NCBI GenBank assembly: GCA_016212185.1 | Contig: JACRGX010000075.1 | Coordinates: 1 to 32,531, forward strand | Origin: Nitrospirota bacterium | GTDB taxonomy: Bacteria > Nitrospirota > Thermodesulfovibrionia > UBA6902 > DSMQ01 | Direction: 5' to 3' | DNA length: 32,531 nt | In this document: positions 1 through 26,010 of the stretch, piece by piece | How the letters are laid out: the number at the start of each line of letters is the position of its first letter | Numbering within the stretch: position 1 is the first letter of the stretch | The notes under the pieces: generated by a model | What the model was told of the DNA's origin: nothing | The model's input: the letters and a program-made list of their open reading frames with translations, nothing else | Databases searched by the model: none | Translations under genes and position numbers: made by a program

Positions 1-10
1 AGAACATACG

Positions 11-24
11 TGTAACATATTACA
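11..24. promoter_or_regulatory. TGTAA-N4-TTACA palindrome upstream of the PEP-CTERM gene
   Basis: The 14-bp sequence TGTAACATATTACA has perfect 5-bp arms. It belongs to the same class as the palindromes at 4290-4307, 4423-4436 and 4490-4503 upstream of the diguanylate cyclase gene. A shared transcription factor is inferred; no regulator gene can be assigned. The rest of 1-227 is AT-rich and I see no convincing promoter or gene in it. Confidence 0.4.
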
Positions 25-227
25 ATTTTAGCCCTAATGAGCTGTCATTCAAGGCCTCTTGTTATAAAATATTTTTACATGCTAATCTTAATTATTTGCA
101 ATTATTACTTACTATTAGCCAGCTTAAATTGCCTTCAAAACCAATCAACAAACAATTTTTACACTCTTTAGCATACATTTTGCACCAACTAATACTGAAA
201 TAAAAAAATACAAAGGGGGAATTAATC

Positions 228-893
228 ATGGTACCGCGTAAAAAAATATTAAACAGTCTCACACATAGAAGTGCCAGGTATTTAGTATTAGTTATCGCCA
301 TGTTTTTTGTTTGCGGGGCAAAAGCAACATATGCTGATACGCTTTTAAGCAACAGTTATGCATATGCTTTCGGCAGTAACCCTAATGCCATTATCATTGA
401 CGTAGATATCTTTGATAATTACTTAGGGGACTACAGTATGTATTACTGGCAATATACTGTAACAAACAATTCCTATAACCCCAGCCCGGGGATTACAAAC
501 GGCTTCTCAGGCTTTTTGCTTGAATTACCTATCTTAATTCCTGAGCTTGCAAATATGTCAGCGCCGAATGCTAATTGGGACTATAATTGCTGTGCAGGCA
601 ATAGGGTGGAATATGCTGTAGAATGGGACATTAAGCCCCTTGACGGCAATGGCATACTGCCGGAACAGCAGGGAGTCTTCGGCTTTACAACAACACCGCG
701 CACATGGACCAACAGCGACGGCTGGTTTCATACATGGAAAGGAGAGCTACAAGTAGATAGGATATCCTTTACCGGAGGCCCCGAAATCCCTAACGCAGTT
801 GCTCCTGAACCTATAAGCTCCATTCTCTTTCTTAGCGGCGGGTCATTTTTAGCCGGCAGAAATTATCTCAGAAAAAAAAGAAAAAACAGCTAA
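228..893 (+). CDS. Secreted PEP-CTERM sorting-domain protein
   Basis: This 221-residue protein begins with a signal peptide (basic residues 4-17, hydrophobic core about 18-30, likely cleavage near the AKA or TYA at 31-36). It ends in a PEP-CTERM tripartite signal: Pro-Glu-Pro at 193-195, a short hydrophobic helix at about 196-210 and a basic RKKRK tail. In this family an exosortase removes the tail at the membrane and the protein is exported to the surface or into exopolysaccharide. The middle (40-185), rich in Tyr, Trp and Asn, matches no domain I can name. The start is supported by a purine-rich AAAGGGGGA at 212-220. A strong terminator follows at once, so the gene is probably monocistronic. 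No exosortase is visible in this window. The PEP-CTERM call is firm; the function of the body is unknown. Confidence 0.88.
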   Translation: MVPRKKILNSLTHRSARYLVLVIAMFFVCGAKATYADTLLSNSYAYAFGSNPNAIIIDVDIFDNYLGDYSMYYWQYTVTNNSYNPSPGITNGFSGFLLELPILIPELANMSAPNANWDYNCCAGNRVEYAVEWDIKPLDGNGILPEQQGVFGFTTTPRTWTNSDGWFHTWKGELQVDRISFTGGPEIPNAVAPEPISSILFLSGGSFLAGRNYLRKKRKNS

Positions 894-2780: not shown

Positions 2781-3953
2781 ATGTACACCAGGCATTTCGG
2801 TCTCAAAACACTTCCTTTTGAAAACGTGCCTGATCCGGCTTTCTTTTTTGATCAGGGCGATTATGCCAAAGTCCGCAGCCGGATAACAGATTCTTTAAAT
2901 GCAGGCAGAGGTTTAATCGTAGTGACAGGGCCTATCGGGTCCGGCAAGACAACCCTTAGTCAAATGATAAAATCCGATATTCCTTCTAATATAAAACTTA
3001 TATGGATGGCGCTGCCGCCCGGGAGCAGCACAGATCTTTTTATTTTTATTGCCAGTGAGCTTGAGCTGAAGCCCTCAACATCTGAGATGGTCTTTCTTTT
3101 AAGGGATATTAAGAATGCCCTCTTAAAAATCAATTCCGACGGCAGTAAATGCCTGCTCATAATAGATGAATCTCATCTGATGCCGGATGAAACACTTAAC
3201 GGCATCCGGCTGCTGAACAATCTTGAAGAGGGTGCAATCAAACTTATCCAGATACTTCTGCTTGGACAGGAAGAATTGATGGAAATAATCAACAGACCTA
3301 AGATGGAGTCTTTCAAACAGCGCATTGCAACTCTGGAAAATATAGGGAAGTTGGATTCCGACAGGCTGCGTAAGTATATCTCGCACCGCATTCACGTGGC
3401 AGGAGGACAGTCCTCCATATTTTCAGATACAGGATGGGAGGCCTTAAGTTTAGCTTTTGGTTCTGAAGGCACACCCCGCGTAATCAATTCCTTATGCGAC
3501 AGATCCCTCAACTTCGCATTTGAAAGAGAACAACAAACGGCAGATGTTCATAACGTCTATAAAGCTGCACAGGGAATGGGATTAAGCAATGAAATCTTTC
3601 ATTATGTAGTTGAGCTTAAAAACAGGGAGAGGGAGAGAAAGAAACAAGCAATATCTGACCTGGGAGCTAATTCTGTATTAGAGCCGGCAACTTCCATTCA
3701 TACGGTGAGCAGGGAATCAGACGGAACAGATATGGAGCATAAGGACATACCGTCAGTGCCGTTACAGTCAGCATGGAAGGAAGATGAAATCAGCCTTGCT
3801 ACCTCTAATATTGAACAAAAAAATCTGAAAATACCGCTGTTATTACTCCTGCTGTTCATAATAGCGCTCATTTTAAGTCTCTTTTTATACTGCCGGATAT
3901 TTGACTCTTCTGATCCAACTGCATGCTTTAATAAATTCATAGGGTTTGAGTAA
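2781..3953 (+). CDS. ExeA/GspA-type AAA ATPase with C-terminal membrane anchor (copy 2)
   Basis: This 390-residue tandem paralogue of the preceding gene is very similar through the N-terminal ATPase half, including at nucleotide level around Walker A (GPIGSGKTT), Walker B (CLLIIDESH) and the ILLLGQEEL strand. It diverges in the linker, which is charged and rich in Glu/Lys/Arg near 285-300. A C-terminal transmembrane helix and short tail are kept at about 353-375. An AAGGAGA Shine-Dalgarno precedes the ATG. The 78-bp gap to copy 1 suggests one transcript. With both nucleotide-binding sites intact, a hetero-oligomeric ATPase or two specialised motors are possible; neither can be shown from sequence. 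Confidence 0.85.
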   Translation: MYTRHFGLKTLPFENVPDPAFFFDQGDYAKVRSRITDSLNAGRGLIVVTGPIGSGKTTLSQMIKSDIPSNIKLIWMALPPGSSTDLFIFIASELELKPSTSEMVFLLRDIKNALLKINSDGSKCLLIIDESHLMPDETLNGIRLLNNLEEGAIKLIQILLLGQEELMEIINRPKMESFKQRIATLENIGKLDSDRLRKYISHRIHVAGGQSSIFSDTGWEALSLAFGSEGTPRVINSLCDRSLNFAFEREQQTADVHNVYKAAQGMGLSNEIFHYVVELKNRERERKKQAISDLGANSVLEPATSIHTVSRESDGTDMEHKDIPSVPLQSAWKEDEISLATSNIEQKNLKIPLLLLLLFIIALILSLFLYCRIFDSSDPTACFNKFIGFE

Positions 3954-4029: not shown

Positions 4030-4260
4030 TTGAAGAGCAAGTTCATCTATAATAAAGTCATATGTATCGCCCCACTTAGATTACAGGACAGAATTTATAT
4101 TGTAAAAGCAAAAGAAGACCCTGCGGTAAGTAACATCGCAGCAAAAATGAGCAGTGTCAAAATTATAAATGATATTTTTTTAAGCATAACCCTTTCTCCT
4201 CTCATCTTTTTTTATATATCATTAACTTCTTATCTATGTATAATGCAAATCTCATGCTAA
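4030..4260 (+). CDS. Doubtful small ORF, TTG start
   Basis: This is an open frame of 76 codons starting at TTG. The product would have a basic N-terminal half and a hydrophobic C-terminal segment (about residues 48-74) that could span the membrane. No good Shine-Dalgarno or family resemblance is visible and the region is AT-rich, so it may be noncoding. It is listed because it is the only sizeable frame in the 721-bp gap between the second ATPase and the diguanylate cyclase. Confidence 0.15.
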   Translation: MKSKFIYNKVICIAPLRLQDRIYIVKAKEDPAVSNIAAKMSSVKIINDIFLSITLSPLIFFYISLTSYLCIMQISC

Positions 4261-4289: not shown

Positions 4290-4307
4290 TGTAAAGTTAA
4301 GTTTACA
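4290..4307. promoter_or_regulatory. TGTAAA-N6-TTTACA palindrome
   Basis: TGTAAAGTTAAGTTTACA has perfect 6-bp arms around 6 nt. It is the most distal of the TGTAA/TTACA sites upstream of the diguanylate cyclase gene. Regulator unknown. Confidence 0.4.
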
Positions 4308-4397
4308 TTTATAACACTATAATTTTAAGACGCTTCCCCTATTCCTAATTTAAAACATTTAGAATCAATACGTTTAGGAAAATTGCTGAATAAACGA

Positions 4398-4503
4398 TTA
4401 TATGTGTCTTGGTTTACATAAATGTAACCTGTTACATATGTGTTACTTTACATAGGCGTAAACTATGACATATGTGTTACTTTGTATGATGTAAACTTTT
4501 ACA
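4398..4503. promoter_or_regulatory. Tandem array of TTTACAT/TGTAAC half-sites (likely operator region)
   Basis: Three imperfect direct repeats of about 33-35 bp lie end to end (about 4398-4432, 4433-4467, 4468-4500), each starting near ATATGTGT and ending near TGTAA(A/C)CT. Embedded are overlapping perfect-arm palindromes: TTACATAAATGTAA at 4413-4426, TGTAACCTGTTACA at 4423-4436 and TGTAAACTTTTACA at 4490-4503. Clustered, regularly spaced half-sites are the usual look of a cooperative operator. The array lies 170-280 bp upstream of the diguanylate cyclase start. Regulator identity is unknown. Confidence 0.5.
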
Positions 4504-4542
4504 ACATTTAGTATTTCTCTTGTTGCGCATAATATTAATATT

Positions 4543-4601
4543 GCCCTCATGGGGATGGTGAATCTCTTAAAGGATATGTCGTCAGCGTTTATGTGGAGGG
4601 C
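4543..4601 (+). ncRNA. Possible structured leader RNA upstream of the diguanylate cyclase
   Basis: A closing stem GCCCTC (4543-4548) / GAGGGC (4596-4601) encloses an inner hairpin GGGAT-GGTGA-ATCTC (4552-4566) and about 30 further bases. A-rich sequence and AT-rich DNA follow, then the gene at 4675. The arrangement looks like a compact folded RNA or cis-regulatory leader. It matches neither the class I nor the class II cyclic-di-GMP riboswitch motifs I know. Structure is seen; function is speculation. Confidence 0.25.
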
Positions 4602-4674
4602 AAAAAATGATATAATTATTGTATGTTTTAAATATTAACTGATGGTCCTTAATTGACAGGGGTCTGAAAATTAC

Positions 4675-5868
4675 ATGGACTGGAATATAATTTTAGAAAT
4701 ATTGCCCGATTTGCTGCCATGGCTTTTATTGCTATCCTTTACCTGCCTCATTGCTTTTTTATTTTACTTGTGGGGTAAACAGACAGGAGTTTCCAAAGGC
4801 AAGGAACAAATAAGCAAAAAAACCCGGCTCATAGAGTCCCAGAGGGACAAGCTTCAGAGCGAACTGACTGCCGTCAACCTGAAACTTGAGCAGTATATTA
4901 ATTTTCTTGTAAGGATTCCTGATGCGGTGAAAAACATAAACTCCGCTCTTTCATTTGACGAGCTGGTCACATCAACAATCAGGCTGACAAAAGAGATGAT
5001 TGACACAAACGCAGTGGAAATTTATATCAAAGACCTGAAAAGCGGCAACCTGAAGCTGGTCGCGGCTTTCGGCACAAACCGGGGGCAATCAATTGAGTTA
5101 AAGCCCGGTGAGGATGTAGTGGGCAATGCGGCTGAACTGCTGATATTAGTTTCAAGAGACTCCCTGAAACCGAGCAGGAATACTGCAGCCGACAAGTTCA
5201 TTGAAATGGCCGCGCCCATTGCCTTCAGAGGAAGCCTCATCGGGGTCATCGGCATCGGAAAGATTAAGAGGCGCATGGAAAACGAAAAACGGCTTCTGTC
5301 CATGATAGCCGACCTTTTTGCAGTGGCATACAGAAACCTTGAGTCCCTTGACAGCGTCAAGGAGGAGGCTATAACAGACGCCCTGACCGGGCTCTTCAAC
5401 CGGCGATACTTCTTTGAAGCGGCTCACAGTGAACTACGGAAAACAGAGAGCTACAACTCCACTCTCTCGGTATTCATCTTTGACATTGATAATTTCAAGC
5501 ATTACAATGACACAAACGGCCATCCGCAAGGCGATATCCTGCTGAAGGAGCTGGCGCTCCTGGTTAAAAAAAATTCCCGCTCTACAAACATAGTTGCCCG
5601 TTACGGCGGCGAAGAATTCATAGTACTGCTGAAGGACAACGATAAGAACGGCGTCATGACCTATGCCGAAAATATCAGAAAAATGATTGAGACTCATCCT
5701 TTCCAGCACCGGGAAAAACAGCCTCTCGGCTTTGTTTCCATCAGCGGAGGAGTAGTCGCTTACCCAGTTGACGGAGATACCATAGAAAAACTTATCAAAA
5801 ACGCTGACAGCGCTCTCTATTCCGCAAAAGAATCCGGCAGAAACCGTGTGATTGCATACCAGTCATAA
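4675..5868 (+). CDS. Membrane-anchored GAF-GGDEF diguanylate cyclase
   Basis: This 397-residue protein has one N-terminal transmembrane helix (about 13-34), a basic and coiled-coil linker (about 35-75), a GAF-like sensory domain (about 85-225) and a GGDEF domain (about 230-397). The active site is GGEEF at 311-315, preceded by the metal-binding strand FIFDIDNFK and the NGHPQGD loop, so it should make cyclic di-GMP from two GTP. The usual inhibitory I-site RxxD has Asn in place of Asp (R302-S-T-N305), which may weaken product inhibition. There is no EAL or HD-GYP domain. The nearby pilB/pilT/pilC genes and surface-protein genes are the sort of functions c-di-GMP controls (inference). A large palindrome-rich region lies upstream. 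Confidence 0.92.
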   Translation: MDWNIILEILPDLLPWLLLLSFTCLIAFLFYLWGKQTGVSKGKEQISKKTRLIESQRDKLQSELTAVNLKLEQYINFLVRIPDAVKNINSALSFDELVTSTIRLTKEMIDTNAVEIYIKDLKSGNLKLVAAFGTNRGQSIELKPGEDVVGNAAELLILVSRDSLKPSRNTAADKFIEMAAPIAFRGSLIGVIGIGKIKRRMENEKRLLSMIADLFAVAYRNLESLDSVKEEAITDALTGLFNRRYFFEAAHSELRKTESYNSTLSVFIFDIDNFKHYNDTNGHPQGDILLKELALLVKKNSRSTNIVARYGGEEFIVLLKDNDKNGVMTYAENIRKMIETHPFQHREKQPLGFVSISGGVVAYPVDGDTIEKLIKNADSALYSAKESGRNRVIAYQS

Positions 5869-25646: not shown

Positions 25647-26010
25647 TGATCTTCCCCCGATTTAACGGACACAAAGTTAAGTTAGGCTGCCATAGCCTCC
25701 AGTTCAAATAATACCGGGGATTTATATCCCAGGGCTGAATGTCTCCTCTGACGATTATAGAACATTTCAATATATTCGAAAACACTTTGTATAGCCTCTG
25801 TCCGTGTTTCATACCTGTAATCATACACATGCTCTATCTTCAATGTATGGAAAAAACTCTCAGCAACTGCATTATCATAACAATTTCCCTTCCTGCTCAT
25901 GCTCTGGATAAATCCAAATGCCCCCAGCACTTCCCGAAAATCAGCGCTCGCATACTGCACTCCTCTGTCAGAATGAAATATACAACATGAAACCAGAATA
26001 AGCCGCACTT
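25647..26010 (-). mobile_element. Truncated IS3-family insertion sequence
   Basis: The transposase remnant ends at 25682 and is followed outward by TGATCTTCCCCCGATTTAAC at about 25647, which resembles the TGA...CCCCC terminal repeats of IS3-group elements. The other end is lost: coding similarity stops at about 25985-26008, so most of orfB, all of orfA and the second terminal repeat are missing. The 184 bp beyond (26009-26192) are AT-rich with nothing recognisable. Confidence 0.7.
25682..26008 (-). pseudogene. IS3-family transposase OrfB, C-terminal fragment
   Basis: Recognisable rve/DDE integrase sequence runs from [11 protein letters not shown] (the second catalytic Asp) through [18 protein letters not shown] (the catalytic Glu) to [17 protein letters not shown]. 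The first Asp and about two thirds of OrfB are absent, so it cannot be active. The first 10 codons of the open frame are probably not transposase. Its frame is intact to a natural C-terminus, suggesting fairly recent truncation. Confidence 0.88.

Follow-up and report, generated by a model that had tools for sequence, protein, structure and literature searches.

A palindrome array beside a diguanylate cyclase gene of a Nitrospirota bacterium is probably a distal enhancer of a sigma-54 promoter on the opposite strand

What does a dense cluster of TGTAA/TTACA palindromes control when the gene beside it encodes a diguanylate cyclase? A sequence-only reading of the window (the whole 32,531-nucleotide stretch analyzed, contig C75 of genome G000) had placed such an array before the cyclase gene and proposed one regulator linking c-di-GMP production to surface proteins. 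Four palindromes were recovered at 4290-4307, 4414-4427, 4423-4436 and 4490-4503, and the matching TGTAACATATTACA that had been reported ahead of a PEP-CTERM gene was confirmed at 11-24. Positions 4290-4503 hold 8 TGTAA/TTACA half-sites, compared with 0.95 expected from first-order Markov shuffles of the same intergenic DNA and a maximum of 6 among 20,000 such shuffles; the palindromes are genuine and well outside what chance would give. The tandem repeat described for the array has a period of 34 bp, with units at 4413, 4447 and 4481, the third of which is degenerate: on direct comparison units 1 and 2 are identical at 28/34 positions and the third unit at 15-17/34. Within its own genome the intergenic stretch as a whole was found only once, and when this genome and related genomes were searched only the cyclase-proximal 101 bp were matched. 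Rfam assigned no family, giving a lone sub-threshold mir-466 match on TATGTG-rich DNA which was taken as chance.

The distal sites belong to a module of three 14-bp boxes, A (TGTAACATRTTACA), B (TGTAAYATAACATA) and C (CGTAATATTTTACA), with 4 bp between A and B and 2 bp between B and C. On the minus strand of the window the innermost box is TGTAAACCAAGACA (4405-4418), followed outwards by TGTAACAGGTTACA (4423-4436; top-scoring copy of the array, 17.75 bits), TGTAAAGTAACACA (4439-4452), a degenerate box CGTAAACTATGACA (4457-4470; no strand assigned) in register with box C of this geometry, and the outermost box TGTAAAAGTTTACA (4490-4503). A proximal 18-bp palindrome, TGTAAACTTAACTTTACA (4290-4307, minus strand), lies apart from these. 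A composite box model scored the window array (4405-4503) at 25.3 bits on the plus and 24.4 bits on the minus strand, compared with 5.5 bits for the best of 300 shuffled regions. As the array reads almost equally well in both orientations, its direction rests on the sigma-54 site and the open reading frame (ORF) associated with it.

The best sigma-54 (-24/-12) match in the window, on either strand, is the predicted promoter TTTAGCATGAGATTTGCA at 4261-4244 of the minus strand, 28 bp from the proximal palindrome. This site still ranked first in the window, with 167(+) second, when the model was trained without it, and scored 20.1 bits with a retrained nine-site model; only 1 in 2000 shuffled intergenic regions reached 18 bits. 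Both the box and sigma-54 models were trained on sites hand-chosen ahead of PEP-CTERM genes. The typical -24/-12 element has GG and GC; the -24 dinucleotide of the 4261-4244 site is AG, as it is in two intact PEP-CTERM promoters. Genome-wide the sigma-54 pattern has 8 matches (1 in the control), two of them inside the window. The distal boxes lie at -157 to -242 from the sigma-54 site, within the range of about 80-300 bp for activator sites of such promoters, compared with -153 to -286 in most other promoters (those on C47 and C101 are nearer), and the distance from site to ATG is 56 nt here and 11-83 elsewhere. An rpoN gene is present (G000:C103, 428 bits, above cut-off), and also in G003. 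Between the array and the cyclase no acceptable sigma-54 site was found, the best plus-strand site scoring 7.2 bits. Judged from sequence features of this kind, it is likely that the array is a distal enhancer of the minus-strand sigma-54 promoter, that it belongs to a PEP-CTERM regulon, and that its downstream gene has been cut down and the cyclase is not a target.

Downstream of 4261(-) come AGGAGAAAGGG and then a 30-codon ORF, MLKKISFIILTLLIFAAMLLTAGSSFAFTI* (4095-4187, minus strand), with a Shine-Dalgarno-like stretch, ATGAGAGGAGAAAGGGTT (4188-4205, minus strand), abutting its start codon. By eye the translation reads as a Sec signal peptide, after which the frame closes. The stop lies only 141 bp from the convergent ATPase gene, which leaves no frame for a PEP-CTERM protein of the usual length, and the ORF is probably the 5' remnant of a PEP-CTERM-type gene. 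With only a signal peptide left of the downstream gene, the promoter module is probably orphaned or in decay. The ORF had no database match and its 30-aa peptide gave nothing meaningful against phages; past the signal peptide no PEP-CTERM or other domain remnants were found, and a plus-strand 76-aa ORF at 4030-4260 was assigned to no family. Searches of relatives turned up no homologue of the intergenic stretch, so the ancestral intact gene was not seen, and as the contig is from a draft genome, the apparent truncation could be the product of a misassembly. The promoter might instead be functional, with the ORF encoding a real small secreted peptide or the transcript acting as a regulatory RNA. 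The well-preserved sigma-54 site, Shine-Dalgarno stretch and start codon would fit this, as would the short ORFs of 50-75 aa at other box-controlled loci (G000:C77, G001:C195, G042:C216 and G044:C48). We nevertheless regard it as unlikely: a signal peptide with about three mature residues is an implausible product, the PEP-CTERM genes having this promoter module are of at least 182 codons, and the 30-codon ORF is not conserved in the relative.

Genome-wide statements on the 2.33-Mb genome are based on pattern and family searches. The loose motif that had been proposed, TGTAAM-N2-KTTACA, was not enriched across the genome, with 35 sites at up to one mismatch compared with 71 in the reversed control. 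Exact TGTAA-N4-TTACA sites are few. Three of them, C75:11 (the same as C52:32871), C47:9969 and C101:8803, immediately precede a PEP-CTERM gene each; the remainder are C41:7815, upstream of a gene for a probable multihaem cytochrome, and two array copies. The exact 18-bp form TGTAAA-N6-TTTACA occurs once in G000 (4290-4307) and once in G003 (C189), where a PEP-CTERM gene has its sigma-54 site 25 bp further on, and nowhere else in the three genomes. A two-box pattern allowing up to three mismatches gave 13 sites in 61 genomes and a single site in the reversed control: specificity resides in the arrangement of the boxes and not in the loose motif. Seven of the 13 precede PEP-CTERM genes and one is the window array itself; at G000:C77 and G001:C195 the pattern stands before a sigma-54 site and a short ORF, at C61 before an enhancer-binding-protein gene, and in G042 and G044 between an enhancer-binding-protein gene and a short ORF. 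The full A-4 bp-B-2 bp-C geometry (18/16-bp spacing) was found upstream of PEP-CTERM genes at G003:C189, C32 and C69 and at G000:C24, and the B-C pair at G000:C52/C75 and G001:C80. The module ahead of PEP-CTERM genes consists of distal 14-bp boxes, sometimes the 18-bp TGTAAA-N6-TTTACA box, and a -24/-12 site. A common regulator site, as had been proposed, is supported for the PEP-CTERM gene at 228 and for others of this genome and its family, in arrays of cooperative appearance and conserved spacing.

Variant boxes, TGTAACATTGGACA...TGTAACATNACA, accompany strong sigma-54 sites at G000:C77:1370 (L236) and G001:C195:1341 (L229), where the genes that follow are ORFs of 50-75 aa and not PEP-CTERM genes. 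These loci are a possible second branch of the regulon.

A box directly before a PEP-CTERM gene was found at 11-24 and at several other loci; at the array the corresponding ORF is truncated after its signal peptide. The box at 11-24 (TGTAACATATTACA, plus strand) is followed by the second-best sigma-54 promoter of the window, TTTAGCATACATTTTGCA (167-184, plus strand), and by a 221-aa gene (228-893, plus strand) called as PEP-CTERM by its C-terminal motif, APEPISSILFLSGGSFLAGRNYLRKKRKNS; Pfam and NCBIfam gave no match to it. The preceding box of this promoter sits on contig C52, across a 57-bp overlap. In the copy of the promoter in G001, a same-genus relative (Nitrospirae groundwater MAG), the box block is kept and much of the flank has diverged. 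An exosortase is encoded in the genome (TIGR02602 at G000:C37, 139 bits), along with several TIGR02595 matches above cut-off.

Other features of the window were recorded in passing. Window positions 1-57 are shared with the end of contig C52, an overlap of 57 bp which supplies the missing half of the PEP-CTERM promoter, TGTAACAGAACATACGTGTAACATATTACA. Two tandem paralogous ATPases (1542-2702 and 2781-3953) lie beside an OmpA-domain gene, and both resemble the XrtA/PEP-CTERM-associated family TIGR03015 at well under its cut-off (172 vs 324.5 bits). By eye, an ORF at 25682-26008 is like the C-terminal part of an IS3-type transposase integrase domain.

With respect to the regulator, genes for enhancer-binding proteins lie directly beside the boxes at loci of four genomes (G000:C24, G003:C189, G042:C216 and G044:C48). 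At G000:C24 and G003:C189 a probable sensor kinase gene is followed in turn by the gene for an enhancer-binding protein of response-regulator type (565-566 aa), the boxes and two PEP-CTERM genes; in G042 and G044 the activator gene ends directly before the boxes. The Fis-type helix region is nearly identical among the four activators. For the C24 activator the REC domain was recognized in a search with the TIGR02915 model, and the PAS-like insert and the kinase gene by reading of the sequence. No protein of G000, G001 or G003 passed the cut-off of this PrsR model (502.6 bits), the best scoring 446. The regulator is likely to be the response-regulator enhancer-binding protein encoded beside the boxes. 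At G001:C92 the Fis-type helix region of the activator (L226:2540-4255) is missing its second half, and no boxes remain before the PEP-CTERM gene, as though a single deletion had removed both.

We infer a mechanism in which an enhancer-binding protein of the NtrC family, most likely the PEP-CTERM-adjacent response regulator, would bind cooperatively to the tandem 14-bp boxes, which lie at about -157 to -242 relative to the sigma-54 site. Looping of the DNA would then allow its AAA+ ATPase to remodel RNA polymerase-sigma-54 at 4261-4244(-), and intact copies of the module would drive PEP-CTERM surface proteins, including that of the gene at 228. The occurrence of two kinds of site might alternatively reflect two enhancer proteins acting as an AND gate on one sigma-54 promoter, an arrangement we think improbable. 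The three-box array would in that case be bound by the response-regulator activator and the 18-bp palindrome by another; an example would be the NifA-like GAF-AAA-Fis protein that is encoded beside the PEP-CTERM genes of C47 and has a similar counterpart on G003:C32.

The placement of the array before the diguanylate cyclase gene (GGDEF; 4675-5868, plus strand) was borne out as to position and not as to direction, and the cyclase, a neighbour unsupported as a target, is probably not controlled by it. Activation of the cyclase gene by the array, alone or in addition, with a resulting link between c-di-GMP and surface proteins, was considered very unlikely. About 172 bp separate the end of the array from the cyclase start downstream, enhancers are orientation-independent, and a weak sigma-54-like site is present at 4507(+); this site, however, scores 7.2 bits, lacks the -12 GC and is matched by 25.6% of shuffled regions. 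Nor was the array conserved upstream of cyclase orthologues. In G001 the cyclase is 90% identical and the proximal 101 bp of upstream DNA (4573-4674 of the window, plus strand) are 89% conserved, but a short unrelated spacer stands in place of the region between the ATPase stop and about 4572 and the array is absent, and nine further cyclase relatives likewise have no box array upstream. Of the single regulator that had been proposed, the site common to PEP-CTERM genes was retained; the c-di-GMP link is unsupported, because the sigma-54 promoter is on the other strand and the array is missing in the cyclase relatives. A palindrome cluster before a c-di-GMP gene can therefore mislead when the opposite strand is left unread. 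Also very unlikely are binding of the array by an unrelated regulator (Crp/Fnr, NtcA or TetR type) and membership of the array in a mobile or structural repeat. Several regulator families do recognize palindromes with TGT/ACA arms, but the sites here recur at fixed spacing ahead of sigma-54 promoters and next to sigma-54 activator genes in four genomes, and the stretch has neither a second genomic copy nor an Rfam family beyond the sub-threshold match.

Among known systems, NifA sites have the form TGT-N10-ACA. The upstream activating sequences of NifA and NtrC resemble the present array as tandem TGT...ACA dyads upstream of sigma-54 promoters, while the spacing here is TGT-N8-ACA and TGT-N12-ACA. 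The system also resembles that described by Haft et al. (2006) for PEP-CTERM genes: a 17-nt motif ending in TTTACA, sometimes repeated, sits about 63 nt ahead of a sigma-54 motif upstream of these genes, PrsR is its presumed binder, and the authors found it only in Proteobacteria (PMC1569441). In both this PrsK/PrsR-associated box system and the present one, boxes whose 3' half is TTTACA are repeated upstream of a -24/-12 site in front of PEP-CTERM genes, and the presumed binder is a sigma-54-activating response regulator. The system here, in contrast, is from Nitrospirota and has a 14-bp TGTAAC-N2-GTTACA core in three-site arrays at -150 to -290. Compared with the text description of the Haft box, the 5' half here is TGTAAA or TGTAAC, the lengths are 14 or 18, and the proximal box is 28 bp from the sigma-54 site. 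In Geomonas, TGTCGG-N5-TTTACA was found before a PEP-CTERM sigma-54 promoter; it shares the 3' half with the sites here and not the 5' half. RpoN dependence of a PEP-CTERM gene was shown for pepA of Aquincola tertiaricarbonis, a PEP-CTERM gene whose promoter has a mapped -24/-12 element and a predicted upstream enhancer; that organism differs in being a betaproteobacterium with an intact gene, and the enhancer was not dissected (PMC9850573). A literature search, with most subscription papers outside its coverage, found no such system reported for Nitrospirota. By sequence comparison the Nitrospirota box system is a variant of the known PEP-CTERM/sigma-54 kind, related yet distinct, and a three-site relative occurs in a phylum beyond the Proteobacteria of the 2006 account. 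Given the fixed geometry and an adjacent candidate regulator, a surface-protein regulon becomes predictable from sequence in this mostly uncultured phylum.

A further sigma-54-like element, ATGGCATNNNTTTTGCA, was observed fused to (CAGA)n tandem repeats at 20 sites in 10 of the 61 genomes (0 in the reversed control), including L255 (G000:C11:16136-16164), G000:C2:23111, L253, L254, L256, L258 and L261-L264, among others. These elements are usually followed by an intrinsic-terminator-like hairpin and often by a secreted-protein gene, and the L255 copy lies about 50 bp after a c-di-GMP-I riboswitch. The CAGA-fused element is possibly a sigma-54-driven attenuator leader.
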